DNA of 18,283 bases, taken from contig JAJRZQ010000040.1 in the NCBI GenBank assembly GCA_024275165.1, positions 1 to 18,283 of the forward strand, written 5' to 3'. The DNA comes from a bacterium (lineage in GTDB: Bacteria; SAR324; XYD2-FULL-50-16). Positions within the stretch are counted from its first letter, which is position 1; each line of letters begins with the position of its first letter. Positions 1-15,650 of this stretch are shown in pieces. Made by a program: the position numbers and the translations under genes. The notes beneath the pieces are model-generated. The model saw only the letters and a list, made by a program, of their open reading frames with translations. It was not told the origin of the DNA and ran no database searches.

Positions 1-687
1 AGAACCGACTTTCTCAGTCGCATGAGTCATGACTTTCGCCTCCCCTTAAGCGCGATTTTAGGTTTTTGCCAAATTGCCCTCACCCCCATAAAAGGGGCCG
101 CGTTCAATAAAAACTCCAAAGAAGAACTCTTTGAAAAAATATTTCACAATGGGCAAAAACTTGAAAAAATGATTACCGACCTCCTTGAACTCAGCACCAT
201 TGAGATGGGGCATGAGCGGATTGATCAGCGCTCCTTATCGCTCAAGGATGCCTTTAAGGATGTCTTACTCAGCTTGCAGCCTTCCCTCACCGCAAATCGC
301 GTGGAAACCCAGATTGAAGTTGACCCCGACTTGCCCCGGGTGAGCGCTGATTTTCGCCTGCTGAGAAATGTTCTTTTCAACCTACTAAATACCTTGATTC
401 ACAGTAAACCAAAAAGCCACATCCTTTTATTCGGTCGTTTTAAAAAACAAAGCAAACAAATCGAAGTAGGATTACAAATCAGCAATGTAGTCATAAAGGC
501 GGAGAGCCTTGAAGAAATGTTGTCCGGGGTTTGCTCCTCTACAGATCAAGGGAACTGGGAAACCTTCGGCCTCAACATGAGCTTTCGCCTCTTAGAAATT
601 TCAGGCAGCAAACTTGAATTTATACCAAGTCCCCAGGGCGAAAAGGCCCGTTTTCGCTTCTTTTTAGCCCCTTGGGAGGATCAATGA
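1..687 (+). CDS. Histidine kinase, C-terminal part, with degenerate ATP-binding domain (5' end outside window)
   Basis: The reading frame is open from the window edge, so the start lies upstream. The codons before the first in-window ATG (22) already match the lead-in to a HisKA H-box, so that ATG is internal. The H-box has the motif SHDFRLPL with the phospho-acceptor His at 28-30, followed by the usual dimerisation helices. The region from about 340 should be the HATPase domain. In its N-box (LRNVLFNLLNTLIHSKP) the Mg-binding Asn is Thr (391-393). The DxGxG box is absent: the aligned stretch around 475-500 reads QISNVVIKAE. Only a remnant of the last glycine box (TFGLNMSF) remains. The fold therefore looks kept but ATP binding looks lost, so this is probably a pseudokinase or signalling scaffold. 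It overlaps the next gene by ATGA (684-687), which implies translational coupling. Upstream sensor domains cannot be seen. Confidence 0.85.
   Translation, partial: RTDFLSRMSHDFRLPLSAILGFCQIALTPIKGAAFNKNSKEELFEKIFHNGQKLEKMITDLLELSTIEMGHERIDQRSLSLKDAFKDVLLSLQPSLTANRVETQIEVDPDLPRVSADFRLLRNVLFNLLNTLIHSKPKSHILLFGRFKKQSKQIEVGLQISNVVIKAESLEEMLSGVCSSTDQGNWETFGLNMSFRLLEISGSKLEFIPSPQGEKARFRFFLAPWEDQ
674..686 (+). promoter_or_regulatory. Ribosome binding site deciding the start of the receiver-PP2C gene
   Basis: GGGAGGA at 674-680 sits three bases before ATG 684. It favours this ATG over the in-frame TTG at 672, which would lie upstream of the site. The receiver domain starts directly with MKALIIED from the ATG, as is usual for the family. 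Confidence 0.7.
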
Positions 688-1793
688 AAGCGTTAATCAT
701 TGAAGATCAAGGCGACTCACGCGATATCATTCAATTTGGTCTGCAAATGTTCGGTTTTGAGGTGCATACTGCTGAAAACGGGCTCTATGGCATGATCGAG
801 ATCTATCAATACGAGCCCGATGTGGTTTTGTTGGAACTGAATTTACCTTTCACCGATGGCTTTGCCGTATTGCGACAGATTAAAAAAGACCTCCGTTCCG
901 CCATGATCCCCGTGATGATCATCACCTCTTCGGGTGAGCCCATATTACAACATGAAGCCTTTGCCGCCGGCGCGGCGGACTATTTGATCAAACCGGTTGA
1001 TCTCGAAATCTTTGGGGCTAGGGCGCGAGTCATGGCGGATCGCTATCAATTGGCCAAGGGACGGCAAGCCGATATTCGCGCCGCTTCCTTATTGCAAAAG
1101 AAATTTCTTACCTCGATCCCTCAACTGCTGGACGCATTTCGGAATTCTAAAATCACCCCCGAATTATTCAATCAGCCCGCGACCGATATCTCTGGAGATT
1201 TTTTTTACCCCAAGCCCATCCGACACAAAAACGCGGTGGGTTTTTTCTTCGCAGATACCTGCGGCCACGGTTTGGCGGCAGGGCTCATCTCTATGCGGAT
1301 TCTCAGCGGAATCGAAACCGTGGATTCGCCCTCGCAGCATCCGAGTGAACTTTTACACTTTATCAATAGCGATCTAGTGGGGATTTTACCGCCCGGTACT
1401 TTTGTCGCCGCCCTGTACTGCATTTTTCATGAAAATCATGTGATCTTATCCAACGCGGGGCAGCCCGCGCCCATCATCATCCGGGAAAACAACGCGACCT
1501 TGATTGAGCAATACGGCAACCCCCTGGCGATTTCAGAAAATGTGACCTTTGACGATTTCACCATCCCCCTAAAGTCGGGGGATAAATTTATTCTTTATAC
1601 CGATGGGCTTATTGAAGCGACCAACCCGGAGGATCAAGACTACGGCTTGCAAAGATTGCTCAACCTTTGTTCCGCGGGGGGAGACCATTCAGCAAAAAAG
1701 CTGACTCAAACCATCTTAGAAGACCTACGCCTTTTTTGCGCCGGCAAACCCTTTGATGACGACTTGAGCCTAGCTATTTTTACGGCATCTTGA
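684..1793 (+). CDS. Receiver-PP2C (SpoIIE/RsbU-type) phosphatase with Asp-to-Glu receiver
   Basis: A 369-residue, two-domain cytoplasmic protein. Residues 1-120 are a CheY-like receiver with the acidic pair E7-D8, Thr81 and Lys103 in place. The phospho-acceptor position in the LLELNLP motif is Glu51 (codon 834-836) instead of Asp, so Asp phosphorylation is not expected and Glu may mimic the phosphorylated form. Residues about 135-369 are a SpoIIE-family Ser/Thr phosphatase. The metal-binding acids are visible in SGDFF (D172), ADTCGHG (D191), YTDG (D307) and DDDLS (D359/D360), so the catalytic domain looks active. Family members dephosphorylate STAS-domain anti-sigma antagonists, and the next two genes both carry STAS domains. 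A TTG at 672 is in frame, but ATG 684 has the better context: GGGAGGA at 674-680 and an ATGA overlap with the upstream stop. The stop TGA (1791-1793) shares a base with the next ATG. Confidence 0.92.
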   Translation: MKALIIEDQGDSRDIIQFGLQMFGFEVHTAENGLYGMIEIYQYEPDVVLLELNLPFTDGFAVLRQIKKDLRSAMIPVMIITSSGEPILQHEAFAAGAADYLIKPVDLEIFGARARVMADRYQLAKGRQADIRAASLLQKKFLTSIPQLLDAFRNSKITPELFNQPATDISGDFFYPKPIRHKNAVGFFFADTCGHGLAAGLISMRILSGIETVDSPSQHPSELLHFINSDLVGILPPGTFVAALYCIFHENHVILSNAGQPAPIIIRENNATLIEQYGNPLAISENVTFDDFTIPLKSGDKFILYTDGLIEATNPEDQDYGLQRLLNLCSAGGDHSAKKLTQTILEDLRLFCAGKPFDDDLSLAIFTAS

Positions 1794-2551
1794 TGGACAC
1801 TTTCATGCAACGAATCTTGCCTTCGACCACAGAGCAAATTGAAGCATGCTTTGATCTTTTTGATGAGGAACTCACGCAGATTCAGGGGCAAGAGACCGAA
1901 CGGGAACTGTTTTTACTCAACTTCGTTGAGGCCTTAACCAATGCCGCCGAGCATGGCAACCGCTGGTCGGCAAACAAGCGGGTCTATGTTGAAACCTTTA
2001 CCGATAGCCATTTCAGTATCGTCTTCATTCGTGATGAGGGGTCCGGCTATCGCCCTAAATTTGTGAAACTGGAAGAAGTTTCTCATAACCGAGGCCGAGG
2101 GCTGGGAATGATTCGAGCCCATTCCGATGCCGTTTATTTTAGCCACCAAGGCCGAGAAATTGTTTTTTGGAAACGCTTTACCAAGGAGGTCAGCATGTAC
2201 CGCGAAAACGACAATGCAAGTTATGAATATTCCCTGATTGGTGATCAAGGTATTTTGATCAACAAATTCACCATTAAGCAAAACGGCCTGCTCAATCATG
2301 CCCTAACCGAATTTTTTGCCGAACAAAAGCTGCCCGATGTGAACTTTATTCTATTTGATTGCAGTAAAGTACGGGTATTATCCAGCCTTTCTTGGGGAGT
2401 GATAATCGAGTTCTTACAGAGCTACTCAAAAATCTATTTAATTCTCTTCAACGCCAGTATGGCGGTCGTGCAAACTGCAAAAACCCTGGGGCTTTACGAA
2501 CCCGGAGGGCCTTATAGGAATTTAAAGATTTTAGAAAGAGCAACCGCCTAG
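1793..2551 (+). CDS. RsbW-like anti-sigma-type kinase fused to an STAS domain
   Basis: A 252-residue fusion. Residues 1-130 are a GHKL ATPase of the RsbW/SpoIIAB (HATPase_c_2) type, with the N-box EALTNAAEHGN (E46, N50), the G1 box RDEGSG (D81) and the G2 box NRGRGLGMI, all intact. Residues about 140-245 look like an STAS domain: a hydrophobic strand ILFDCSKVRVL, then SSLSWG aligned with the DSSGLG phospho-site loop of RsbV/SpoIIAA. S197 or S198 is the candidate phospho-serine. Kinase and probable substrate are normally separate proteins (RsbW and RsbV), so the fusion is unusual. The ATG at 1793 overlaps the previous stop in a TGATG arrangement; an in-frame ATG at 1805 is the alternative, and no strong Shine-Dalgarno sequence is seen for either. 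An internal start at 2195 may also produce the STAS half alone. The partner sigma factor is not in the window. The kinase assignment is firm, the STAS assignment good. Confidence 0.87.
   Translation: MDTFMQRILPSTTEQIEACFDLFDEELTQIQGQETERELFLLNFVEALTNAAEHGNRWSANKRVYVETFTDSHFSIVFIRDEGSGYRPKFVKLEEVSHNRGRGLGMIRAHSDAVYFSHQGREIVFWKRFTKEVSMYRENDNASYEYSLIGDQGILINKFTIKQNGLLNHALTEFFAEQKLPDVNFILFDCSKVRVLSSLSWGVIIEFLQSYSKIYLILFNASMAVVQTAKTLGLYEPGGPYRNLKILERATA
2183..2197 (+). promoter_or_regulatory. Internal Shine-Dalgarno and ATG in front of the STAS half (possible second start)
   Basis: AAGGAGGT at 2183-2190 is a full anti-Shine-Dalgarno match. It is followed after four bases by ATG 2195-2197, in frame with the kinase-STAS gene (residue 135). 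Translation from here to 2551 would give a 118-residue free STAS protein of the size of RsbV/SpoIIAA. The site falls exactly at the domain junction, which suggests a relic of, or a working, separate STAS gene. Real use is inferred from position and quality only. Confidence 0.55.
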
Positions 2552-2579
2552 CTCGATTCAGGTTTTAACAGGAGCCAAA

Positions 2580-3362
2580 ATGAATGATTATGCAGATTCC
2601 GGCGAATTGCTGGAAAGTTTTTTAACCGATGCGGAGACCTTGTATGAAGAAGCCCTAGAAGCCTTGAACCTTTTAAAAACAGGTTCGGTCGCAGAGGGGT
2701 TACAACATTTGGCCCGCCCCCTTCATACTTTAAAGGGGACCGCCGGCTTTATCAGCGGACTGGAACCCATTGGGAGCTATGCCCATCAATTAGAAGATCA
2801 CTTGCTCGAGATTCGCGCCCAACCCATTGCTTGGAACCAAAGCGTGCAGGCTTGGGTTGCTTCGTCTGTAGAGCAAATCTTCGCGGTGATCGAGCAAATT
2901 AAATCGGGTGATGAGGTTGAGGTACCCCCTTTATCCCCCTGGCCCCAGACCTCCCCCGCACCGTCTTTGCAAGAGCAAATGGCACAACAGACAGCCGCCG
3001 CGGCCCATCAACCCCAAACAGCGCCAATCCAAAGCAATGACTTTCACCTTGAGCAACGAGAGGGGTGGTTGATCCTCCATCCCTTAGTCAAAAGAATTCA
3101 TAAGGGGCAGCAATACCTGTATTTAAAACAGCTCGAAGGAGAAATCCAAGAGGGAAGCAAGCTCGCCTTAGACCTCTCTCCAGTGATGTCGATGGGCTCC
3201 GAGGGATGGGGCGCCTTGTCCCAACTCGCGAAACGCTGTTCCTTAGCCGTGTTCGGTATGGCCGAGGGCAACGCGTGCGAGCGAACCTTTCGCGCCTTTG
3301 GCTTCAGTCGCTTGATTCAAGTATATAAAAACGAGCAAGAGCTGTTTCAGGAGGCCAAATAG
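2580..3362 (+). CDS. Hpt-STAS fusion protein
   Basis: A 260-residue soluble protein. Residues 1-105 form an Hpt four-helix domain with the motif HTLKGTAG; His49 is the phospho-acceptor. Residues about 110-150 are a Pro/Ala/Gln-rich linker. Residues about 154-258 fit an STAS domain: the strand KLALDLS, a GSEGWG loop with Ser207 at the phospho-serine position, then a FRAFGFSRLIQVY segment typical of anti-sigma antagonists. The Hpt domain corresponds to the P1 domain missing from the next gene, a CheA-like kinase, so it is probably phosphorylated by that kinase in trans. The STAS part could be a substrate of the upstream RsbW-like kinase and PP2C phosphatase. AGGAG at 2570-2574 precedes ATG 2580; the gap to the previous gene is 28 bases and the next gene starts at once. 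In Pseudomonas the equivalent parts, HptB and HsbA, are separate proteins; the link to them is inferred. Confidence 0.86.
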   Translation: MNDYADSGELLESFLTDAETLYEEALEALNLLKTGSVAEGLQHLARPLHTLKGTAGFISGLEPIGSYAHQLEDHLLEIRAQPIAWNQSVQAWVASSVEQIFAVIEQIKSGDEVEVPPLSPWPQTSPAPSLQEQMAQQTAAAAHQPQTAPIQSNDFHLEQREGWLILHPLVKRIHKGQQYLYLKQLEGEIQEGSKLALDLSPVMSMGSEGWGALSQLAKRCSLAVFGMAEGNACERTFRAFGFSRLIQVYKNEQELFQEAK

Positions 3363-4913
3363 ATGGATCTACAACAAGAGGCAAAACAATCGCTGATCGA
3401 GTTGGAAGAAGCTCTACTCGACTTTGAGCAAGAGCCCCACAATACAGCCCTAACCGGCGAAGCTTTAGAGAAGCTCAACCAGTTTCGGCTCTTTGCGCAA
3501 ATCATGGAGCTTGATTCGGTTTTGCTCGCCGTCAATCTTTTGACGACCTTGTTGCAAGCGGTACAGGCCAAAGAAATGAATTTGAGTGAAAACCGCCTGG
3601 GCTTGTTTTTTGAAGCCGTGGAACTGATCCGTCAGGTAGCGGGGTTTCATCAATCTGCTCCCCTTGAGTCGCGCTCAACCTTGCCCCCAACCGCTCAGGC
3701 CAAAACCAATTCAGCCATCCCTGCTTCCCCTCCCTCCAAGAGCAAAATCGAAGGCAATGGAACAAAAACCAGCGAGACGCAAGGGAGTATTAAGGTGGAG
3801 GTGAAAAAGCTAGAACAAATTGACGCCACCTTGCAAGAAGTGGTGATTCGCTACTCGATCTTAGCCCAGAGCAATGAAAATGAAAAAGTCACGGAGTTGG
3901 GCAAGATGCTGGAACAACTCAAAGAGCAAATCCATGCGCTGCAAAGCATCAGCGTGAAACCCCTATTGATGAAAATGAAGCACCTCGTCACCAGTACGGC
4001 GATGAAAACAGGAAAGCAAATCGAATATGTTATGCAGGGCGCGGACTGCCTCCTCGATAAAAAATTAGTGGAAGAATTGAGCGAGCCCCTGTTGCACCTT
4101 TTGCGCAATGCTTGTGACCACGGGATCGAAACCACCCAAGAACGCACCGCTCAGGGCAAGCCCCCCTTAGCGAAAGTCTCCTTAAGCTTTGAAGCGACCC
4201 AAGACGAAGCCCTCATTACCATTACAGACGACGGTAAGGGGCTCAGTACGCGCCGCATCTTAAAAAAGGCATTGGAAAAAGGGGTCGCCCAGGCAGACCA
4301 AAGCTACTCCAACCAAGAAATCTGGCAATTTATCTTTCAATCTGGTTTCTCAACCGCGCAAACCCTATCGGATATTTCGGGCCGTGGGGTGGGGATGGAT
4401 GTGGTCAAGCAAAAAATCCACCGCCTAGGCGGGGAAATTCATTTAGAAAGTCAAGAGGGCATCGGAACTCGCGTTCTACTCAAAATCCCCCTCAAAAGCA
4501 GCCTAAACGGAATTTTTAAGGGAATCATCACCCAGGTTGGGCCCTATCGCTGCGCGATCCCTTTGCAATATGTCAAAGAGGTATTAGACGGCTCCAAGTT
4601 GCGACTCGACGCAAAGGACAAGCAAATTCTGCATCAAGGCAAAGCCTTAGCGGTTTATCCCCTAGCAGAACTCTTTCACAGTGAGGGAGCAAAAAAGCAA
4701 AAAGCCTTGGTTTTAGAAGCCGATGCCCAAGCCAAATGCGTCATTACGGTGGATCGGGTTTTAGGGGAGCAAGATATCGTCTCGCGGGGCTTTGGCAGTT
4801 ATATTCGCCAGCTCTCCGCCCGTTCTTTGATCTACGGAATGGGATATTGCGGAGATGAATTAAGTTTAGTTTTAGATGTGGAAAACCTACTGCAAAGCGA
4901 GGTTGCTGCCTAA
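3363..4913 (+). CDS. cheA: CheA-like chemosensory kinase lacking the phosphorylatable P1 histidine
   Basis: A 516-residue kinase, shorter than full CheA (about 650). Residues 1-95 are helical and align with an Hpt domain, but the HTLKG site reads NQFRL, with Asn39 in place of His. A Ser/Pro/Lys-rich linker follows at about 97-140. P3 dimerisation helices span about 143-205 (VEVKKLEQIDATLQEVV). The P4 ATPase spans about 206-378 with an intact N-box (HLLRNACDHGIE), G1 box (TDDGKGL) and G2 box (GRGVGMDVV). The P5 CheW-like domain spans about 383-512. The protein should bind CheW and MCP arrays and hydrolyse ATP, but it cannot phosphorylate itself on a P1 His; the Hpt-STAS protein encoded just upstream is the obvious partner. 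Split CheA pairs are known, for example CheA3/CheA4 of Rhodobacter sphaeroides. The ATG follows the previous stop with no gap; AGGAGG at 3350-3355 is its ribosome site. Confidence 0.9.
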   Translation: MDLQQEAKQSLIELEEALLDFEQEPHNTALTGEALEKLNQFRLFAQIMELDSVLLAVNLLTTLLQAVQAKEMNLSENRLGLFFEAVELIRQVAGFHQSAPLESRSTLPPTAQAKTNSAIPASPPSKSKIEGNGTKTSETQGSIKVEVKKLEQIDATLQEVVIRYSILAQSNENEKVTELGKMLEQLKEQIHALQSISVKPLLMKMKHLVTSTAMKTGKQIEYVMQGADCLLDKKLVEELSEPLLHLLRNACDHGIETTQERTAQGKPPLAKVSLSFEATQDEALITITDDGKGLSTRRILKKALEKGVAQADQSYSNQEIWQFIFQSGFSTAQTLSDISGRGVGMDVVKQKIHRLGGEIHLESQEGIGTRVLLKIPLKSSLNGIFKGIITQVGPYRCAIPLQYVKEVLDGSKLRLDAKDKQILHQGKALAVYPLAELFHSEGAKKQKALVLEADAQAKCVITVDRVLGEQDIVSRGFGSYIRQLSARSLIYGMGYCGDELSLVLDVENLLQSEVAA

Positions 4914-4973
4914 AACAGGCAGGGGCCACTAAAAGAGCGGTTCAAACAAGAAAGTAGATTGCTGAAGGATGAA

Positions 4974-6563
4974 ATGAAAATTACAGTCATTGCCTTATTT
5001 TTTGGTTTGCTGGGGTTGGGGGCTGGGGCTGCCCTACTCAAGGAGCTCTTAGAGCAAGAAGGGCTCCAGCAGAGCCTAGGCCACGCCAAGCAACTCGCAC
5101 AGGCTTTAACCCAAGAATCAACGGGGAGGCCGCCCCTTTGGCATGGTCTGATCCAAAGCGCGAAACCCGCTCCAAACGAAAAGTTCGAGCCTAAAATCAA
5201 GGGCTTGCGTTTTTGGAGTTTGGGAGGGCACCTGCCTCAAATGAGGCCCTTGGAGCAAAATGAGGCGGGGTTTCAAGCCTGGCAGCACACCAAAAAACAA
5301 GACTATTGGGTGCGAGAGGCGCAGACTCAAGAACTTCGTTTTTTTAAGGTGATCGTGGCGCAAAAAAGTTGTAGGACCTGCCACCTTGAGTCCGGGGGTA
5401 AAAAAGCAAAACAAATCTTTAAAGCGGGGGAGCAGCTTGCCGTCATGGAGATTACAACCCCCCTAGCTCCCTGGCGAGCCGAGGTTAAAAAAACAGTTCA
5501 ATGGATCTTTGGGGCTGCTTTGCTGGGTTGGGTGATCTTAGTCTTCTCGCTCCAGCTCAGCACAGGCAAAATCGTGCATCGAGCTTTGAGGAGAGTGCAA
5601 CAACGACTCGAATTGATGGCAACAGGGCAATTTTCAAAAGACGAGGCCCCAGAAGGAGCCCTCTTTCATCATCTGTCTGCTTTATCACAGCGACTGCAAA
5701 AAGCCTTGCAAGAGATCCAAGGCACCGCAGACCTGATCAGCGCAAACAGTGAGGAAGTGAGCAACCGAACCCAAAGCCTAGCCGCGGATACGGCTCAGCA
5801 GGCGGTTCACCTCGAAGAAGCTACAGAACGCTTTGAGGAAATTGCCGCTTACCTCCACCAAACCAAGGAAAAGGCAAAAGAATCTCAACGACTGGCAAGC
5901 ACCGCCACAGAAAGGGCGGAAAAAAGCACCGCCGCGGTGGATGCGGCCTTAAACGAAATGGAACAGCTTTTTGCCAAGGTAAATATCATCGAAGAAATCG
6001 CGAAACAAACCCATCTTCTCGCCCTGAATGCCTCAATTGAAGCGGTTCGGGCAGGGGAGCAGGGGAAAGGGTTTGCCGTGGTGGCAGGCGAAGTCCGCAA
6101 ACTTTCAGAAGCCAGTAAAGGAGCGGCCAATGAGGTCATGGAAAACTCCAACCGCTGCAACCAAGCGATCCGGCGAGCCCATGAAGAGTTGAAGCGGCTG
6201 CGGCCTGCCTTAGAGCAAACCATCCATCTGGCGCAGACGATAGCGCAAGGGAATGTAGAACAAAGTCAGGGGAGTGTGAAGGTGCGTCAATCCATACAGT
6301 CCCTCACCCAAATGACCCAAACCCAAATCGCTGGAGCAGCGAATTTGACCCACCTTGCAGAAAATATGAACCAAAAAACACAACAATTGAGGAGCCCTTT
6401 AAGCTTTTTCAATCCGCAAAAGCTACCCCATAAAACATCGCTCACAGCCAAACGACCTAACCCGAACCCCTCAGAGCCCAAAGGAGCGCAACCCGACCCC
6501 TTGCTCAACCTCGCGGTGAAACCAACACCACAAAATGAAACAGGAATGATCAACTCACATTAA
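4974..6563 (+). CDS. Methyl-accepting chemotaxis protein with periplasmic c-type haem motif
   Basis: A 529-residue membrane receptor. Transmembrane segment 1 is at about 4-22 and transmembrane segment 2 at about 174-195. Between them is a periplasmic domain of about 150 residues that resembles the DUF3365/Tll0287-type sensor. It ends in SCRTCH (C133, C136, H137), a CxxCH covalent haem-attachment motif. A short HAMP-like stretch follows, then the coiled-coil signalling domain with the hairpin tip at about 338-385 ([19 protein letters not shown]), which is the CheA/CheW contact. The tail is Pro/Lys-rich and lacks a CheR-binding NWETF-like pentapeptide. The sensor probably reads redox state, oxygen, NO or another haem ligand in the periplasm; the ligand is unknown. 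An in-frame TTG at 4959 is possible, but ATG 4974 with AAGGA at 4965-4969 is preferred. It lies 60 bases after cheA and 8 bases before cheW. Confidence 0.92.
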
Positions 6564-6571
6564 ATATCGTT

Positions 6572-7093
6572 ATGGAACAATATCTAACCTTTGAACTACA
6601 CCATGGAACCTACGGTATCTTAGTCCAACAGGCAAAAGAGGTTTTGGAAAACTACCCCATTACCGCGGTTCCCAATATGCCCCAAGCCATGTTGGGGGTA
6701 ATCAACCTGCGGGGGGACGCGACCCCGGTCATGAACTTGAGTTTGCGCCTCGGCCTGACTTTTCCAAAAGAACAGGGTGTGGCGCATTTGATAGTGGTGG
6801 AACTGGCGGAACAAACCCAAATCGCCTTAGCGGTAGAGCAGGTTAAAGAGGTGGTTTTACTCGAACCCGAAGCAATTTTAGCCCCGCCGAAACAAGGTAT
6901 GAACAGGTTGTTGAGCCCCTCTTTTATCCAGGGCTTAGTTGAATCCGAGCCGGGAAAAATGATGATTTTATTGAATGTGGAAGAACTTTTTTCTTTCTCC
7001 AGCTTAAGCGCGCAAGAAGCCTTGAGCAGACTGAAAGAAGACCTGCTTCAACTTGAAGCGGAAGAAAGCTATCCCCTTGAACAGCAAGGATAA
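6572..7093 (+). CDS. cheW: CheW-type coupling protein
   Basis: A 173-residue protein, close to the usual CheW length, with a single CheW domain. The typical order is seen: YLTFELHHGTYGI at the start, VKEVLENYPIT-like first half, MLGVINLRGDATPVMNL in the middle (the most conserved CheW stretch), then VEQVKEVVLL and a final MMILLNVEELF strand. It should link the MCP encoded just upstream to the P5 domain of the CheA-like kinase. The start ATG lies 8 bases after the MCP stop; no clear Shine-Dalgarno sequence is present, so translation probably depends on coupling. The C-terminal helix, rich in Glu and Leu, is slightly longer than usual. It is the last gene of the tightly packed run; a 190-base gap follows. 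Confidence 0.93.
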   Translation: MEQYLTFELHHGTYGILVQQAKEVLENYPITAVPNMPQAMLGVINLRGDATPVMNLSLRLGLTFPKEQGVAHLIVVELAEQTQIALAVEQVKEVVLLEPEAILAPPKQGMNRLLSPSFIQGLVESEPGKMMILLNVEELFSFSSLSAQEALSRLKEDLLQLEAEESYPLEQQG

Positions 7094-7283: not shown

Positions 7284-7796
7284 ATGGAACAGGCACTTTA
7301 CTATCGAATTCTGGTCATTGATTCACAGATTTTATATTGGCATATTTTACGGCAGGTCATGGTTCGCTTCGGAGATTTTTCCATTGATTACGCCATGACC
7401 CCCGCCCAAGCGCAAGAAAAAATGGAAAACGACCATTATGATCTTGTTATCTTAGAGCCCCTGGCCCTGGCGGCGATCCCGCTTGAGATGCAAGACGAAT
7501 TTTATGAATTCTGCGAGAATTCACAAATCTCTTTGATTCTTTTCAGTATTCTTTCCCATGCCGAGTTATCTCGCTTTATGCTGCACTCCTTGGCGCTAGC
7601 CTCTTTGTCTAAGCCCTGCAACTATATGGAGTTTGGCGAAGTCGTTACCCGTCTGCTCTTAAACGAAGAAAAACCCTTGAAGAAAAAATCACAGGCTCGC
7701 AAAAAAGGCCGACCTCTGGTTCAGCCCGAGGCGATTCCCTTGTTGAACCATGGTTTGCCCTTTATCCCTGATTTGAGCAGCGGAGCCTTAAATTAA
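7284..7796 (+). CDS. Receiver-like protein with Glu at the phospho-acceptor position
   Basis: A 170-residue protein. Residues about 6-128 fit a CheY-like receiver: RILVIDSQ at the start (one acidic residue, D13, instead of the usual pair), LVILEPLAL where the phospho-acceptor Asp should be (Glu58, codon 7455-7457), LILFS for the Thr/Ser strand and LSKP with the conserved Lys. Residues about 130-150 are strongly basic (KKKSQARKKGRP), followed by a hydrophobic, Pro-rich tail. Phosphorylation on Asp is not expected; the protein is probably a pseudo-receiver that acts by binding a partner. GAGGA at 7276-7280 precedes ATG 7284. It is separated from the chemosensory operon by 190 bases, so it may have its own promoter. 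Its stop overlaps the stop of the opposite-strand gene. Partner and output are unknown. Confidence 0.75.
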   Translation: MEQALYYRILVIDSQILYWHILRQVMVRFGDFSIDYAMTPAQAQEKMENDHYDLVILEPLALAAIPLEMQDEFYEFCENSQISLILFSILSHAELSRFMLHSLALASLSKPCNYMEFGEVVTRLLLNEEKPLKKKSQARKKGRPLVQPEAIPLLNHGLPFIPDLSSGALN

Positions 7797-7800
7797 GGCT
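7784..7800. terminator. Palindrome at the convergent gene ends (possible weak two-way terminator)
   Basis: AGCCTTAA at 7784-7791 and TTAAGGCT at 7793-7800 are perfect inverted repeats around one base. The stop codons of both convergent genes lie inside. As RNA it could form a short AGCCT/AGGCT stem with an A/T loop on either strand. The stem is weak and no long U-tract follows, so a terminator role is only a guess from the position. Confidence 0.35.
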
Positions 7801-8398
7801 TTGGATCGGTTTCAGCAATTGTGATGGGCGAGGTTTGAACCCGCGATTCCCAGAGATCGACTAAATACATTTTACTCTCTCGCATCGCTTCGTTCGCGCC
7901 AGGAGCGCGCAAGGCTTGATCAATATAAAACAAAGCGGTGTTGAAATCCAATTGAATGTAGCAGATGTCGGAAATCGCCCAAAAATACGCCGCGCTGTTG
8001 GGTTTATCCAAAGCGTTTGCAATGAGAATTTTTTTTGTTTCTTCCAACTGCCCTAAAAAAAAGGTTTCCACCACTTCTTTGGGAGGCAGTTCCAAAAGAG
8101 CGACATTGAGGCGCGCCACCTTTTGTTTGATTCCTAAAGAGACGGTACCGACTTGATCCGCCAAACCATGTTGAGATAAAAGATCTTTGATTTGCTTGCG
8201 AAATTCCGCTTTATGCACGGGAACATTGTACCCCCCGGGAATGGATTTCAAACGGGCGTTTTTACCGCTTCGTTTGTTGATCCAGGTGGTACCGATCATC
8301 AAGATCACCAAAAAGGCCGTTAAAAAAATCAGCAAAAAATAGATCTGCTCAACATTACCCTCCGAACTGGTAGGGTGAATTATCTGGCTGAAGTCCAT
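7793..8398 (-). CDS. Small membrane-anchored protein with one TPR-like repeat, unknown function
   Basis: A 201-residue protein, last gene of the Pfa operon. A transmembrane helix spans about residues 18-40 (IYFLLIFLTAFLVILMIGTTW) and is followed by positive residues (NKRSGKNAR), so the C-terminal part is probably cytoplasmic. The rest is soluble and helical. One TPR-like helix pair is visible at about 132-166 (AAYFWAISDICYIQ and FNTALFYIDQALRAPG). No enzyme motif is seen and the family is not recognised. The start overlaps the pfaD end by 19 bases, which argues for co-expression with the lipid synthase. A membrane adaptor role for the synthase or its product would fit the context but is speculation. 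Confidence 0.72.
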   Translation of the reverse strand: MDFSQIIHPTSSEGNVEQIYFLLIFLTAFLVILMIGTTWINKRSGKNARLKSIPGGYNVPVHKAEFRKQIKDLLSQHGLADQVGTVSLGIKQKVARLNVALLELPPKEVVETFFLGQLEETKKILIANALDKPNSAAYFWAISDICYIQLDFNTALFYIDQALRAPGANEAMRESKMYLVDLWESRVQTSPITIAETDPKP

Positions 8399-9996
8399 AA
8401 TGAGTTGGGTTTGATATTGTGTAAAGAAGAGGCAAATTGAACGCCTTGCAGACGCAAAACCTGCAACCGAGCTAAGTAAAGAGTCGAGTTTAAAAGCGCC
8501 TGGGCGACCATTGCGACCTTTCGCCCTTCCGGGGTGGCAAACTCAGTGCCTCGAGTCCAATCGTTAAAGGCACCCATGGCGGGGCCGCACCAGATTTGAT
8601 AATCCATCTCGCGCTTTTTGATCCCCCCGTTGGCCCAACGGGAGGAAAGGCCCAAATACCAGCGAAAGATCAGGGCCATTTTCCGTTTGTCATTGCCTTG
8701 GGCTTTAGCGATGGTGGCGGGGTCTCGTTCCTGAAAAAAGGTGAGGCATTCTTGCCATACCTCTTTGAGGGGGCGTTGAAAAATTTGCCTTTCTAACTTT
8801 TCCCGCTCTGTTGCGGGAATCTGCTCAATGGAGGCATAGCTGTTGTAAATCTCCCAAAGTTTGCCCGCGCGCATGGGGAAGAGAGTGCCTCGTTTCAATA
8901 CCTGTAATTTGACTCCCTGTTCAAACATGTCCGAGGCAGGAGCCATCATCACATCCGCCATATCCGCCTGGGCTAAGAGCTGGCGTACCGCAGCGCAGGT
9001 GCCCGATTCCATGCAGGCTTGATTGATGCTCCCCGTAACAATGTAAGCCGCGCCCATGCTAAAGGCGGCTAAAGCTGCCTCTGGGGTGCCGATTCCGCCC
9101 CCGGCGCCAACGCGAATCCGTTGCGGGTATTGCCGTTGGGATTGAATTTCCTCTCTTAGGCTTAAAATCGCCGGTAAGAGGCTGACCAAAGGGCGATTAT
9201 CGGTATGACCACCGCTGTCGGCTTCTACCGTGATATCTTCTGCCATGGGCAGCTTTTGACTTAAACGGGCCTGCTCCGCCGTGATTTTTCCCTGTTCTTG
9301 CAGCAAGGTCACCCAGCGTTCCGGGGCGGGCTCCATGAAACGGGTAGCCACCTCCTTGCGGCTGATTTTGGCGATAATCCGGTTGGAGCTTTGAACCTGC
9401 CCCGCCTCATCGAGGTAAATTCCCGCCAAACGGTAATGCACCAAGGCGGGGGTTAAGTCCAAATAGGCGGAAGCCTCAATGCAGGTCACTCCCTTGGCTA
9501 GATAGAGGTTTACGGCTTCTTGCTCTAAGGCGGGCTCATTGGGGCTGTGAATCAAATTAAAGCAATAAGGGCCCTTGGGCAATGCGGCCTGAATGGCGTC
9601 AATCGCCTCCTGAATCACTTTGGGGAGTTGCCCCGCCGCGCCGTAACTCGCTAAAAACCCCGCCTGGCCCAACGCGATGACCATTTCTACACTGCTAATC
9701 CCGTTGGCCATGGAACCGGCAAAGTAGGGAGCTTGCACCCCATGCAGGGCAAGAAACCCGGGATCGCCCAAGTCACCCGCTTGCAAAGGGGGGGAAAGGG
9801 CGAGCAATTCCAACCCCTCAGAGGAGTGTAGCCTTCCCCCTTGGGCCAAGGCAATCCCCTGGCCCGTTTTTACGATAAAAAGCTTTTGATCTTGTTTGAA
9901 GGCTTGGCGTATTTCGTTCTCCTTAAAGAACAAGGAAGACTCTTCCCCTTGCCAATAAAGCCCTAACCCCCTCCCTTGTTGTCGAATCAGGTTCAT
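8380..9996 (-). CDS. pfaD: PfaD, enoyl reductase of the polyunsaturated fatty acid synthase
   Basis: A 538-residue FMN-dependent enoyl reductase of the 2-nitropropane dioxygenase superfamily, trans-acting in PUFA synthases; the length matches the family (about 540). Visible marks are GVQAPYFAGSMANGISS at about 86-102, EADSGGHTDNRP at 259-269, the phosphate-binding GAGGGIGTPEA at 297-307 and TGSINQA at 321-327. It reduces enoyl-ACP intermediates during selected elongation rounds and, with the FabA-like domains of PfaC, sets where double bonds stay. ATG 9996 has GGAGG (10001-10005) four bases upstream, inside the end of pfaC, and overlaps the pfaC stop by ATGA. The 3' end overlaps the small membrane gene. 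The assignment is strong; the lipid product cannot be read from the sequence. Confidence 0.96.
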   Translation of the reverse strand: MNLIRQQGRGLGLYWQGEESSLFFKENEIRQAFKQDQKLFIVKTGQGIALAQGGRLHSSEGLELLALSPPLQAGDLGDPGFLALHGVQAPYFAGSMANGISSVEMVIALGQAGFLASYGAAGQLPKVIQEAIDAIQAALPKGPYCFNLIHSPNEPALEQEAVNLYLAKGVTCIEASAYLDLTPALVHYRLAGIYLDEAGQVQSSNRIIAKISRKEVATRFMEPAPERWVTLLQEQGKITAEQARLSQKLPMAEDITVEADSGGHTDNRPLVSLLPAILSLREEIQSQRQYPQRIRVGAGGGIGTPEAALAAFSMGAAYIVTGSINQACMESGTCAAVRQLLAQADMADVMMAPASDMFEQGVKLQVLKRGTLFPMRAGKLWEIYNSYASIEQIPATEREKLERQIFQRPLKEVWQECLTFFQERDPATIAKAQGNDKRKMALIFRWYLGLSSRWANGGIKKREMDYQIWCGPAMGAFNDWTRGTEFATPEGRKVAMVAQALLNSTLYLARLQVLRLQGVQFASSLHNIKPNSLWTSAR

Positions 9997-12900
9997 TTTT
10001 CCTCCACAGAAACCCGGTCTGAGGCAAAACCCCGCGCCCTTTGCTCGCCGTGGCCCAATTGATGTTGTAGGATGGAGGCAGGCTCGTCTTCCAGCAGCTC
10101 GATACCTACCCCTTGAAAGTCGACCACGACCTTTCCCTTTAAAAGAATATCTACATTCGCCTTTGCGTATGGATGGGGACTCAAACCGATTTCAACAACC
10201 TCCATGCGGTATTCAAGGCGGTGATCCCGCGGGCCCACCTGCCCCCGGCAACGAACCTTGTTGGCCAGTCCGGCAATGGGCTGAAAGCGTGCCTTTTTGG
10301 TTTGACTCTGCATCCCAAGGTAGAGTAGATAAAATTCCAATAGCTGCACGCAGCCCTCGGCCATCAGGCTTCCCGCTAGGCAAGGATCATCTTTAAAGTG
10401 GCAGGGAAAATACCAATCCTCTGGGGTTAAATCCTTAAAGGCAGTCACCTGACCCAACCCCCATAAACCGCCTTGGGGGTCAATCGAACTGATTTGATCC
10501 AGCATTAAGAACTCCTCGCTGCTAAAACGCAACGCCGGGTTGAGCCCCTGTTGATCAAAAGCGGGGCCAAAGCAAGAGGCGATCTGCCCCCGGCAGAGGC
10601 AGAGGATCTCCGCATGGGTAAAGGCGGTTTTATTGGTTTGCAATAAGGGTTGAAAAGCTTGTTTTTTTACCTTTGCCCGTTCTGCCTTTTCCTTGTCTGT
10701 TTTCAGCACCCCCTTCCCTTTTTCCAAATCCTCCAGGCTAAAAAACCCGGCGCAGCCGTCGGTCATGATGTGAACCAACTCATCACCTACAAAACATTGA
10801 TACTCAAAAAAGAAAAGCAGGTTGTGCCCGTGACGGGCAAAGGAGTTGATCTGAATCTCGTAGCGCATCCGGTCGCCCTCTTTGGGCATCTTGCCCTTAA
10901 AGGTAAGGGTGCAGTCTAAGAGGCGATAGAGATACTTGCCTTTTGCCTCAAAATCAATCCCTAAATAACTGATCAAAAGCAAGTCGCATTGACCCGCCTC
11001 CACCGCTATTGCCCAGGGAATCTGCCCATCCACGCAAAACCACGCGTCATGAGGCACATCGTACTCGGTGGTGATGGAACTTTGTTTAAACTCCCCCTTT
11101 TTTGCCTCCAAGGCGGTAACGCGGTTGACCAAGAGATAAGGCGGCATGGGAAGGCGCACTCTGGGGCCGTAGCTGTCGATGACCGCGTACTCCGGCCCAA
11201 AGACCTCGGCAATCGACCCGCAAGCAAACTCCATCAAGGCGGCTTCATCCCATATCGCTTGCGGTTTCGGCCCTGGATGGGAAACCGGCGGATAGGCGAG
11301 ATGGCCGGGCACCCGCCGCGGCAATTCGTCAGCAGGCGGAGCCGTTGGCTGAGGCACGGGAAAGGAGCTAGGCTCTTGCTGAGTTTCCAGCAATTGCCCA
11401 TAGCGCAACAGCCCCTTGAGTTGGTGGAGGGATTGGCGGCGCATTTCCAAAAAGGCCGCTTGAGTCTGGGCTAGGCCGAGATGCAGAGCAAAAAGCCGGT
11501 CTAGGGGCGTTGTTTCCTCGCCGAGAATCGCCGTATTGGGCTGGGGGCTTGCCGCCACCGCTTGCGCCGGGGTTGGGGCCCTAGGCAAGGAGGGCTCTTG
11601 CAGTTGAGGCGGGGCAAGCGGCTTCTTCTTCAGCACAAAGGGTTGAATGACTTTTCCACCGGTTAAGACCCGCTGCACCAACTTCTTTTTTTCCGCTTGT
11701 TGTTGGTCGTCCTCACCAAAAATAGCCCCCAGATTGGGTTGAAGTCCATGGCCAATCAATTGGGCTAAGGCTTTATAAATCGAGAGTTGATCGGGCTGCC
11801 CCTTCTGATTGACCCCAACGGCGACATGAGGTCGCTCTTGCAGCGTCTGGTTGATCCATTTGCCGCAAGAAGAGCGAGGACCCAATTCGATAAAAATTCT
11901 GGCCCCCGCTTGGTAGGTTGCCTCAACCAGCTTAGGAAAATCCAAGGCGCGGCAGTACATCTCCGCGATATTGCTTGCGATTTGTTCTTGCGTCACCTCG
12001 GTGACCCCATAGGTTGCGGCGCTAAAAAAGGTCACCTCCGGCGGGTGAGGCGTCTCGATACTGTGGAGTCGGATTAAGGACTCATATTCAGAGCGCACCA
12101 AGTCGCAGTGAATCACATCGCTCAAGGGAACGGGGTGACCTGCCAAGCCTTCTTGAATTAAAAAGTCTTCCAGATTCTTCCGCTCCCCTGCCAACACGGC
12201 TTCTTTAGGGCTGTTGATAAGAATCAAGTAAAGCTTCTCCAGCCCGAAAACCTTTTTTCGCAAGGCATCGACATCGGTTTGCACCGCATAGCCCACCCAA
12301 TCCACCTGCTCTACCCCCCAGGCCTCTTTCGCTACCTCTTTAGGGCCCGCTAAACGGGTTTGAAAAATCGGGTTTTCTTTTAAATACCGGCTCATCTTGT
12401 GAGTGCTGGGCCAAAGCCGCAAGGCATGAGCCATGGAAACCTCCCCCATGGAATAACCGAAAGCCAGGTCGGGTTTGATCTGAAAAAACCCCTGGAACAA
12501 GTCGGTTAAAAGGATAGAGGAATGAATCCCCGTTTCAAACATCCCCACCGCGTCTTGGGTTAAGTCTTCCTGCCACGCCTTTTCCAAAGCTTCAGCGGGC
12601 AATTGGGCTGTTTTAGGGAAAATCCTCCCTGCCCAAAAAAGGTTTTCAGGCTCTGGAGTATGACTTGCGGTGACATCCCACAATTGGGGAAAGGCATACA
12701 GCAGGTCGCGGTGCAGACCAGGGTAGCTGTTAAACCCGCCGGGATAGACAAAGGCGACCTTGCCCTTTTCCCCTAAGGGAGAGGAGGTATAAAAGCTGCC
12801 TCTTGGAGAGGAGTAAAGCGCTTCGCCCTGCTCCACCGCTTTTTTGGCGGCATGGATTTCTTGTCTTAGTTCCTCTAAACTGCCCGCAATCAAGGCAAGG

Positions 12901-15650
12901 CTAGCCCCCTCCGCTTTGAAGGCCTGCGCGTAACAATCCTTGGCAACTTGAAAAAGGGGGCGCTTGGCCGCCGCCTCGCTTAAGCTTGCCAGTCCTTGAG
13001 GCAAATCCTTGCCCTTGAGCCAAAATAAATAGGGAGGGCGTTGCAGGGGCTCGGGAGGGAACACCACCTCTCTGGGCCCTTCGGTCAGTTCTAAGGCCCA
13101 GGACTCCTCCCCTAAGCTTAAGAGTTGCCCCTTGCGTTGCTGAAAATTCAGCCAAGGGCGAGCTTGAGCCTCAAAAGCCAAGGGCCCCTCGGTTAAGGGG
13201 CCTGTAGGGAAGCCCTTGAAATTGACCAGGGGAGGGATAAAGCGATGATAGATCGCCAAAGAGAGTTTAGCCAAACTCAAGGCCTCTTGAGCGGCATAGG
13301 CCTGACCTCCTTGGGTCTCTAGGCTGCTTGCCAGTACGCTATGCCGTTCGCCTTGCAAGGTAATGGGTTGGGGTTGGGTACCGCAAAACTCCAGATAATC
13401 GGCTTGAGGGGTAAACTCCTCAGCTGGATCCAACCGGTTTAAGCTGGTGATTTCTGCGTAAATGGGGATTTTACGCCTCTTTGCTTCCCGCAAATCCATC
13501 ACCACCAAGGCCGCCGCTCCGTCGGCAGGGCGAGGGCCGGAATAATCCGGGTCGAATAAAAAACGAGCTTCCTCACTCCATTGAGCCCCTTGCAGACGGG
13601 CGAATTCCGCGCTGCCGCAGAGGTCAACCGCCGCGATCACCATGGCGGTGACCTCGCCTTTAGAAAGGATCAAATGGGCGGTATCCAAAGCCTGCAAGGT
13701 GGAATGTTCTTCCACAGAAAGGGTAAAGCTCGCCCCTTTAAAATCCCAGAGGTTCGAGACCCGGCAAGCCATAATATTTCCGATGAAGCTGGTAAACTGG
13801 TTGACTCCCACCGGATTATGGAGTTGATTTTGATAATGCTCGATCAAGACGGCTTCTTCTTCTGGCTCTAGGCGTACTCCCGCTTGCCTTAAGCCCTCTT
13901 TAATCCGCCAACCCAACTCAATGCGGGCGCGAAAGGCGTGCAGGCTCGAGTCGGCCTCCATCGCTACAATGACTCCGGCGTTTTCCCCCTCCCTCAAGCC
14001 CGCTTGGCGAATCGCCGCGTCCGCGGTTTTTAGAAGGAGCAACTGCTGAGGAATAAGAGGGTCTTTTTCGTTGGGGGGAATTTTAAAGCGCAGATAATCA
14101 AAGTCAAAGGACTCCATATAGCCGCCTCTTTGCCCCTGGTCCAAAGCCAAGCCCCGTTGTCGCTGGGGGGAAGGGGTAGAGGTGAGGTCTTCCCCCGCGT
14201 AAAGGGCTTGGGAAAACTCCTGTAAGTCGCTCAAAGGGCCGTAGGCCGCTTCGAGCCCCACAATGGCAAGCTTACAAAGTTCAAAGGGTCGGCTCTTTTC
14301 AGCCTGCGCCCTTTCCGGTTTTTCAAACAAAATATGGGCATTGGTGCCCCCAAAACCAAAGGCGTTCACCGCGCCAATGGGTTTATTGCTCGGCCAGGGA
14401 GTTTTGCTTTGGACAATCTGATTTTTACCCAAGCTGTTGGCCGGACTTTCCAAGGGATTTTTGATCCGAATCGTGGCGGGGATGAAGCCTTCTCGCATGG
14501 AAAGGATCACCTTCATCATGCTGCCCATTCCCGCGGCGGTGAGCATGTGCCCGAAATTAGACTTTACCGAGCCAATTTTTGGTTGTAGGTCTTTTTCTCC
14601 AAAAAAGCGGCCTAGACTATCGAGTTCGGTAACATCGCCCAAGGGGGTGCCCGTGGCGTGGCACTCCACATAGCCCACCTGGGCAGGGTCAACCGCTTGC
14701 TCCGCATAAGCCCGCTCATAGCTTAAGACTTGGCCTGCCGGGTTGGGGCTTAAGATGAACTTTCCCCTTCCGTCGTTGGAAAGACCGATTCCCGTGATCA
14801 CGCTTAAAATTGGATCGCCCGCTTGTTGCGCCTCCTCCAAGCGTTTTAGGAGAAAAAAACTGGCCCCTTCGGCGGCAACCAAACCCTGAGAATTTTGGTC
14901 TAGGGGGCAGGACTGATCCTGTTCTGAAAAAGCTTGGAAGGTGGAGAACCCTTGAGCGATAAAAAAGGGATCTGCCCCGCTGACGGCCCCGGCAAGCATT
15001 AAATCCACCTGCCCCGCGTCCAGCCGATCACAGGCGAGCTTCATCGCGTACAGACTTGAGGCGCAGGCCCCGTCTAGGGCAAAATGCCCCCCCTTCAGCC
15101 CCAAGGCCCGAGCCACCACTTTGGCGGGGCGGCTGGAAACCCAACCGTCATCCTTGGTGTGTTCTTTCTCCTCTTGACCTAAGGAAAAATGAGAGCAATG
15201 AAGGGTTTTTTGAATCTCCTCTTCTATCTTTTGGTAGTACAGGGGGAGAAAGACTTGATTCGAGGCGCGGGTGGGGAAGCTTAAATTCCCCAACACCAAA
15301 CCACAGCGCGCTAAGGCGGGGTGATCTAAATACCCCGCTGCCTGTAACGCCTCTTTGGCCGCGTAGAGGGGCCATTGATAAATCGGGTCGAGCTTGCTCA
15401 ATTGCTCCGGGGGGAGGCGAAACCCGCTGGAGTCGAACTCAAACCCTCGAATGTACCCCCCACGCAGACTGTATAATTTATCGGGAACCCCTTTTTTGGG
15501 GGCAAAGTACAAGGCCGGGTCTTGCCCCATTTCAGCGGTTCCCGCCAAGGAGGTGCTATCGATCTCCTCTTTTAGATTTTGGAAGAACTGCTCGGGGTTG
15601 TCTGCCCCAGGAAAAAGACAGCTCATGGAAACAACGGCGATCTTACCCAT
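9993..15650 (-). CDS. pfaC: PfaC-type PUFA synthase subunit with inserted acyltransferase (KS-CLF-AT-DH-DH)
   Basis: A 1885-residue multidomain cytoplasmic synthase subunit. The ketosynthase (about 1-445) has active-site C196 (LDGACASS), H331 (ECHATGT) and H368 (NFGH). The chain-length factor (about 458-800) has lost all three: the Cys position is Glu near 648 (SVEEHST), and the two His positions are Cys and Gly. The acyltransferase (about 955-1290) has GYSMGE with S1067 and a downstream His (H1181); its Tyr before Ser is like PfaB-type ATs. A Pro/Ala-rich linker spans about 1340-1455. FabA-like DH1 spans about 1460-1640 (EYDVPHDAWF, ISYLGIDF). DH2 spans about 1665-1855 with a clear FabA active site CHFKDDP (H1751) and a Glu in MAEGCVQLL. 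Standard PfaC is KS-CLF-DH-DH with AT in PfaB, so this gene probably covers both; no C-terminal acyltransferase of the AGPAT kind is present. ATG 15650 is preferred over the in-frame TTG 15656; it overlaps the pfaA end by 8 bases. Confidence 0.95.
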   Translation of the reverse strand: MGKIAVVSMSCLFPGADNPEQFFQNLKEEIDSTSLAGTAEMGQDPALYFAPKKGVPDKLYSLRGGYIRGFEFDSSGFRLPPEQLSKLDPIYQWPLYAAKEALQAAGYLDHPALARCGLVLGNLSFPTRASNQVFLPLYYQKIEEEIQKTLHCSHFSLGQEEKEHTKDDGWVSSRPAKVVARALGLKGGHFALDGACASSLYAMKLACDRLDAGQVDLMLAGAVSGADPFFIAQGFSTFQAFSEQDQSCPLDQNSQGLVAAEGASFFLLKRLEEAQQAGDPILSVITGIGLSNDGRGKFILSPNPAGQVLSYERAYAEQAVDPAQVGYVECHATGTPLGDVTELDSLGRFFGEKDLQPKIGSVKSNFGHMLTAAGMGSMMKVILSMREGFIPATIRIKNPLESPANSLGKNQIVQSKTPWPSNKPIGAVNAFGFGGTNAHILFEKPERAQAEKSRPFELCKLAIVGLEAAYGPLSDLQEFSQALYAGEDLTSTPSPQRQRGLALDQGQRGGYMESFDFDYLRFKIPPNEKDPLIPQQLLLLKTADAAIRQAGLREGENAGVIVAMEADSSLHAFRARIELGWRIKEGLRQAGVRLEPEEEAVLIEHYQNQLHNPVGVNQFTSFIGNIMACRVSNLWDFKGASFTLSVEEHSTLQALDTAHLILSKGEVTAMVIAAVDLCGSAEFARLQGAQWSEEARFLFDPDYSGPRPADGAAALVVMDLREAKRRKIPIYAEITSLNRLDPAEEFTPQADYLEFCGTQPQPITLQGERHSVLASSLETQGGQAYAAQEALSLAKLSLAIYHRFIPPLVNFKGFPTGPLTEGPLAFEAQARPWLNFQQRKGQLLSLGEESWALELTEGPREVVFPPEPLQRPPYLFWLKGKDLPQGLASLSEAAAKRPLFQVAKDCYAQAFKAEGASLALIAGSLEELRQEIHAAKKAVEQGEALYSSPRGSFYTSSPLGEKGKVAFVYPGGFNSYPGLHRDLLYAFPQLWDVTASHTPEPENLFWAGRIFPKTAQLPAEALEKAWQEDLTQDAVGMFETGIHSSILLTDLFQGFFQIKPDLAFGYSMGEVSMAHALRLWPSTHKMSRYLKENPIFQTRLAGPKEVAKEAWGVEQVDWVGYAVQTDVDALRKKVFGLEKLYLILINSPKEAVLAGERKNLEDFLIQEGLAGHPVPLSDVIHCDLVRSEYESLIRLHSIETPHPPEVTFFSAATYGVTEVTQEQIASNIAEMYCRALDFPKLVEATYQAGARIFIELGPRSSCGKWINQTLQERPHVAVGVNQKGQPDQLSIYKALAQLIGHGLQPNLGAIFGEDDQQQAEKKKLVQRVLTGGKVIQPFVLKKKPLAPPQLQEPSLPRAPTPAQAVAASPQPNTAILGEETTPLDRLFALHLGLAQTQAAFLEMRRQSLHQLKGLLRYGQLLETQQEPSSFPVPQPTAPPADELPRRVPGHLAYPPVSHPGPKPQAIWDEAALMEFACGSIAEVFGPEYAVIDSYGPRVRLPMPPYLLVNRVTALEAKKGEFKQSSITTEYDVPHDAWFCVDGQIPWAIAVEAGQCDLLLISYLGIDFEAKGKYLYRLLDCTLTFKGKMPKEGDRMRYEIQINSFARHGHNLLFFFEYQCFVGDELVHIMTDGCAGFFSLEDLEKGKGVLKTDKEKAERAKVKKQAFQPLLQTNKTAFTHAEILCLCRGQIASCFGPAFDQQGLNPALRFSSEEFLMLDQISSIDPQGGLWGLGQVTAFKDLTPEDWYFPCHFKDDPCLAGSLMAEGCVQLLEFYLLYLGMQSQTKKARFQPIAGLANKVRCRGQVGPRDHRLEYRMEVVEIGLSPHPYAKANVDILLKGKVVVDFQGVGIELLEDEPASILQHQLGHGEQRARGFASDRVSVEEK
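10001..10005 (-). promoter_or_regulatory. Ribosome binding site of pfaD inside the end of pfaC
   Basis: GGAGG on the minus strand, four bases before ATG 9996. It lies in the last codons of pfaC (Val-Glu-Glu-Lys) and fits translational coupling of the two subunits. Confidence 0.65.

Follow-up and report, generated by a model that had tools for sequence, protein, structure and literature searches.

Partner switching, as in the RsbU-RsbW-RsbV and SpoIIAB-SpoIIAA systems, is built from a PP2C phosphatase, a GHKL serine kinase and a STAS protein with a conserved Ser. The window considered here, a stretch of 18,283 nucleotides that makes up the entire contig C32 (JAJRZQ010000040.1) of a 2.69 Mb draft genome from a SAR324 bacterium, carries the same three components, conserved Ser included, in an operon with a chemotaxis kinase (CheA) that lacks its phosphorylatable His and an adjoining protein in which an Hpt domain is joined to a STAS domain (Hpt-STAS). 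It departs from the classical systems in that the kinase is fused to a STAS domain, a second STAS domain sits on the Hpt protein, and no cognate SigB or SigF was found.

The joining of a che operon to a partner switch is already known, as is a CheA whose Hpt domain is encoded by a separate gene. The Che1 operon of Shewanella oneidensis also encodes CrsR and CrsA and, like the window, combines CheA, CheW and methyl-accepting chemotaxis proteins (MCPs) with a PP2C/kinase regulator and a STAS anti-sigma antagonist (PMC9855816); the Che1-CrsR/CrsA mechanism is taken here as summarised in PMC6482189. Unlike the window, Che1 includes CheY, CheB, CheR and CheD, and no Hpt-STAS protein is described for it (PMC9855816). 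CrsR is a single receiver-PP2C-kinase protein, whereas the window encodes separate receiver-PP2C (REC-PP2C) and kinase-STAS proteins and has the CheA P1 domain fused to STAS, so the combination of one receiver-PP2C-kinase protein with a stand-alone STAS protein is not found. A link of Che1 to RpoS has been proposed (PMC9855816), whereas the genome of the window shows no RpoS or SigB.

The HptB-HsbR-HsbA pathway of Pseudomonas aeruginosa shares with the window its Hpt, receiver-PP2C, kinase and STAS parts and differs in its input, which comes from hybrid kinases instead of CheA and an MCP, and in lacking the Hpt-STAS and kinase-STAS fusions (PMC6482189). A stand-alone Hpt fed by hybrid kinases is replaced in the window by an Hpt fused to STAS beside a His-less CheA, and the receiver of the PP2C protein is without its acceptor Asp. 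It is accepted that the Hpt of a CheA can be encoded by another gene of its operon, and CheA3/CheA4 of Cereibacter, like the window, pair a CheA core without a phosphorylatable P1 with an Hpt in the same operon; in the window this Hpt carries STAS, a term absent from the survey of CheA architectures (PMC10782961). No description of a CheA P1 fused to STAS was found in the open-access literature searched (subscription papers lay outside the search), and as a conserved module this fusion seems to be new.

A CheA core and the adjoining Hpt-STAS protein

Domain calls are Pfam matches above the curated cut-off unless stated otherwise, and all genes of the operon lie on the + strand. CheA (3363-4913, 516 aa) matches HATPase_c (6e-16) and CheW (1e-11), and its dimerisation domain scored only at E 0.07. 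Aligned to Thermotoga maritima CheA by phmmer (3e-58 over residues 142-505), it retains the N, G1, F and G2 boxes and the CheW domain, and dimerisation, HATPase_c and CheW domains follow one another in the usual order. No Hpt match was obtained with Pfam in this chain. Residues 1-95 gave a weak Hpt score with Asn at the position of the phospho-His, and a structure model of the N-terminus shows four helices, its PDB matches including CheA P1 (1tqg: Z 12.4, root-mean-square deviation 2.9, 97 aligned residues). This P1 match is supporting and not decisive, as generic four-helix bundles dominate the PDB matches. The layout is accordingly read as a vestigial P1 four-helix bundle (1-95), a short dimerisation region, an intact ATPase domain and a CheW domain, with no phosphorylatable P1/Hpt His in the same chain. 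Judged from these domains, the protein is a CheA core that is incomplete alone.

A canonical Hpt is found immediately upstream. The Hpt-STAS protein (2580-3362, 260 aa), characterised by Pfam, its relatives, conservation and a structure model, matches Hpt (3e-10) and STAS (7e-6) and carries His49 in a canonical RPLHTLKG motif as well as Ser207 in the STAS domain. An HxxKG-type Hpt is thus encoded in the same operon, and the adjoining Hpt-STAS protein would be the obvious substrate of the His-less CheA. A sequence-only reading of this DNA had already called the CheA His-less and implied phosphotransfer to its neighbour; both points are supported by the His-to-Asn change in the vestigial P1 and the canonical motif next door.

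Recurrence of the pair in a distant class

Among 50 sampled relatives of the window, searches with Hpt-STAS matched Hpt domains only, and the pair was absent from the sampled relatives of its own class. A wider sample yielded one full-length match (4.7e-24, 32% identity) in genome G074, encoded between a receiver, immediately before it, and a CheA without the P1 His, immediately after it. A profile built from three Hpt-STAS members was searched in 348 genomes of the class of G074, which is distant from that of the window and may be Desulfovibrionia, and Hpt-STAS was detected in 83 of them, spread over 13 genera and at full length in nearly all.

The pair was scored at the 40 loci that allowed the core to be placed. 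By pattern, a CheA without HxxKG directly follows Hpt-STAS in 36 of these; of the other four, two read by eye have the same CheA with a variant N-box and two were left unread. A receiver with an intact Asp lies upstream of Hpt-STAS at 37 of the 40 loci. In 38 distinct Hpt-STAS sequences the Hpt His is invariant (the search pattern favoured His), and the position of Ser207 is occupied by Ser in 33, Thr in three, Arg in one and Pro in one. The Hpt-STAS proteins of loci L232 and L241, with Arg or Pro at the STAS Ser, are natural test cases for the need of Ser phosphorylation. Because the pair recurs in a distant class, the association of Hpt-STAS with a His-less CheA is more than chance and not a one-off. 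A homologue in Desulfovibrio vulgaris, sought with published primer sequences, was not found, and a plasmid search gave no match.

The partner-switching genes also recur at some of these loci. Genome G798 has, in order, a receiver, HD-GYP, PP2C (without a receiver), RsbW-STAS, Hpt-STAS and CheA, which answers the suggestion of the sequence-only reading that the same gene order be looked for in other genomes. Identity with the window is 36% for PP2C (1e-58), 33% for RsbW-STAS (5e-31) and 33% for CheA (5e-67), and the alignment shows the STAS signature VRxLSSLxWG in both RsbW-STAS proteins. Genome G838 encodes an RsbW-like kinase, Hpt-STAS and CheA plus a convergent REC-PP2C, and genome G863 a receiver, Hpt-STAS and CheA followed by an MCP with CxxCH. 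Therefore, the PP2C, the kinase-STAS and the c-haem MCP of the window each recur beside Hpt-STAS and CheA at remote loci. The receiver and HD-GYP gene abutting the start of the G798 cassette (L230:5613-6964), the latter a likely cyclic di-GMP phosphodiesterase, may represent an output.

The merged operon of the window

The end of contig C45 overlaps the first 349 bases of the window with 2 mismatches and supplies the missing part of the first gene. Across this contig edge the operon runs in the order REC-HisKA (without an ATPase domain), REC-PP2C, RsbW-like kinase-STAS, Hpt-STAS, CheA, MCP (CxxCH) and CheW, with intergenic gaps of at most about 57 bases. Direct reading of the junctions shows translational coupling by an ATGA overlap at 684 and a TGATG overlap at 1793; the gaps that follow the gene at 1793-2551 are, in order, 28, 0, 45-57 and 8 bases, the Hpt-STAS stop codon ending at 3362 and cheA starting at 3363. 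Upstream of the REC-HisKA gene lie 566 gene-free bases, with other genes beyond, and reading into contig C45 revealed no cheY, cheB or cheR upstream of the operon. Chemosensory parts and a partner-switching module thus form one operon. The run of domains from PP2C to CheW, the merging of the two gene sets and the absence of cheY, cheB and cheR, all proposed from the sequence alone, hold after this join.

REC-HisKA, whose 3' part occupies 1-687 and which begins some 430 bases upstream of the window, has 372 aa once joined with C45. It matches Response_reg (7.6e-24) and HisKA (5.8e-13) with the acceptor Asp and the HisKA His intact, and no HATPase was matched in it at E<=0.1, whereas an analogous receiver-kinase elsewhere gives HATPase_c at 1e-25. 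It is the only receiver of the operon with a phosphorylatable Asp. The claim that a STAS protein is the output instead of CheY is therefore not established, because this intact receiver sits in the first gene.

The SpoIIE-type REC-PP2C phosphatase (684-1793, 369 aa; SpoIIE/PP2C 8e-36) was assigned by Pfam and alignments, as was the RsbW-like GHKL kinase-STAS (1793-2551, 252 aa; HATPase_c_2 5e-11, STAS 7e-5). The latter keeps its N, G1 and G2 boxes. Its STAS Ser (residue 198, numbering from the ATG at 1793) is shared by all four proteins of the alignment. A complete set of PP2C phosphatase, Ser kinase with intact boxes and STAS with Ser is thus present. In the receiver of the PP2C protein the acceptor Asp is replaced by Glu (LLELNLP), and the related REC-PP2C receivers have Asp in all nine rows read, some of them from overlapping loci.

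The MCP (4971-6563, 530 aa; MCPsignal 2e-24) has two transmembrane segments with CxxCH at residue 134 between them and a signalling hairpin with an intact tip, in keeping with its earlier description as haem-type. A Tll0287-like domain scored below the Pfam cut-off (E 0.078); the homologous MCP of G863, which aligns with it, has its CxxCH in such a domain (3.5e-27). CheW (6572-7093, 173 aa) was assigned by Pfam (9e-28). A degenerate receiver (7284-7796, + strand), with Glu for the acceptor Asp and Ser for Thr, follows 190 bases downstream; no convincing + strand terminator was seen in the gap, and its membership of the operon is uncertain.

Proposed mechanism and alternative explanations

The best explanation as a whole, to which we assign a probability of roughly 0.6, is a bipartite CheA that joins a c-haem receptor array to a partner switch through Hpt-STAS. 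It builds on what the sequences show: the gene order, the intact catalytic motifs, the His lost from CheA, the Asp lost from the PP2C receiver and a module that is also conserved in a distant class. The c-haem chemoreceptor would control, via CheW, a CheA core without a phosphorylatable P1 of its own, and this core would act in trans on the separate Hpt-STAS protein and phosphorylate its His49. Hpt-STAS would then be the crossing of two phosphate codes: the array would set the His phosphate of Hpt, and the Ser phosphate of STAS would be set by the operon's RsbW-like kinase-STAS and PP2C phosphatase, with Ser207 as their putative substrate. The His phosphate would probably pass to REC-HisKA here and, in the distant class, to the small receiver encoded upstream. 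The Ser code would reach its final target, as we infer, by STAS partner binding, receptor input shifting which partner the STAS/kinase pair holds. That Hpt-STAS is a coincidence detector, in which the His phosphate of the array directly alters the partner-switching state of the same molecule without a response regulator, is less likely, and we propose it tentatively.

Several observations weigh against the bipartite explanation. The Ser code is tied by position to Hpt-STAS at three loci only (the window, G798 and G838), and most family loci read have no kinase and PP2C beside Hpt-STAS. In G863 Ser207 is replaced by Arg and in G862 by Pro, and the STAS matches of several relatives fall below the Pfam cut-off. 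REC-HisKA, the candidate acceptor, was seen only in the operon of the window, a small receiver standing at the other loci.

One alternative is a split CheA that feeds a response regulator only, with Hpt-STAS as its P1, STAS serving just to dock this P1 or to recruit the receiver, and the partner-switch genes co-transcribed and acting separately. The intact-Asp receiver upstream of Hpt-STAS at 37 of 40 loci, usually without kinase or PP2C genes alongside, speaks for such an arrangement. However, the STAS phospho-site is mostly kept (33 Ser and three Thr of 38) and PP2C with RsbW-STAS is syntenic in two distant genomes, and we consider this explanation somewhat unlikely.

A receiver with Glu at the acceptor position generally imitates the phosphorylated, active form and does not take up phosphate. 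This bears on the rearranged HptB-HsbR-HsbA type relay favoured by the sequence-only reading, in which phosphate from Hpt passes to the REC-PP2C receiver and turns the phosphatase on. Although the domain list is the same as that of the Pseudomonas pathway (PMC6482189), the relay is improbable because the acceptor is Glu in the window, the relatives read having Asp, and the syntenic G798 PP2C is receiver-less.

A split CheA that serves ordinary flagellar chemotaxis, with a CheY encoded elsewhere as its target, is likewise improbable. The genome does contain FliA-, FlhF- and FlhG-like genes as well as further che clusters that include CheB, CheR and CheY, but those clusters have their own P1-containing CheA, and the operon lacks cheB, cheR and cheY and includes a whole partner-switch set. 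Decay of the locus, suggested by four degenerate signalling domains (pseudo-receivers, an ATPase-less HisKA protein and a His-less CheA), is very improbable given that all reading frames are intact and tightly coupled, the catalytic motifs of CheA, kinase, PP2C and Hpt are intact and the His-less CheA recurs across a class.

As to the target, the three sigma-70 region-2 genes of the genome are of RpoD size, FliA-like beside FlhG/FlhF, and of ECF size; none resembling RpoS or SigB was seen, and these two were rejected as targets.

Related and neighbouring loci

Partner-switch parts also occur inside che operons of the window's own class. In the same genome, contig C9 (L089, 5132-14039) encodes cheA-REC, cheW, cheB, cheR and cheY followed by an 888-aa REC-PP2C-RsbW fusion, whose additional N-terminal receiver-like part looks degenerate; G002 has the same (L081). 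RsbW-STAS fusions adjoin ordinary Hpt-containing CheA genes in G027, G034 and G028 (L078, L079 and L141), with REC-PP2C in two of them. Considering the C9 fusion and these RsbW-STAS genes, che operons and partner switching have merged more than once or diversified widely. Unlike the window, the loci of C9, G002, G027, G028 and G034 have a CheA that keeps its Hpt, often with CheB/CheR, and no Hpt-STAS; the RsbW-STAS genes of G027, G028 and G034 represent a related theme, not demonstrably of the same lineage.

A scan of the window's RsbW-STAS against GTDB genome contigs gave no true relative. At locus L080 (957-11374), a sensor-kinase operon contains an RsbW-STAS-Hpt fusion together with two REC-PP2C genes that nearly duplicate each other. 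Descent from this cassette (REC-HK, REC-PP2C, RsbW-STAS-Hpt) was rejected: in the tree long branches meet without resolution, and G798 is much closer, the window's RsbW-STAS matching it at 103 bits vs 48 bits for L080. First-look candidates resembling REC-PP2C are very numerous in some genomes of the window's class (399 in G027, 343 in G042).

The rest of the window (7793-18283, - strand) holds a polyunsaturated fatty acid synthase cluster with PfaD (TIGR02814, 7e-192, above cut-off), a multidomain KS/AT/FabA-like protein and the C-terminal half of PfaA running off the contig (TIGR02813, 5e-176).

Implications

The operon provides a specific physical connection, accessible to experiment, from chemoreceptor arrays to partner switching by serine phosphates. 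CheA proteins that annotation would list as devoid of Hpt find an explanation in the separate Hpt-STAS protein. Since such pairs occur in 13 genera of a single class, mutation of one His and one Ser would allow the roles of the orphan CheA proteins in that class to be tested.

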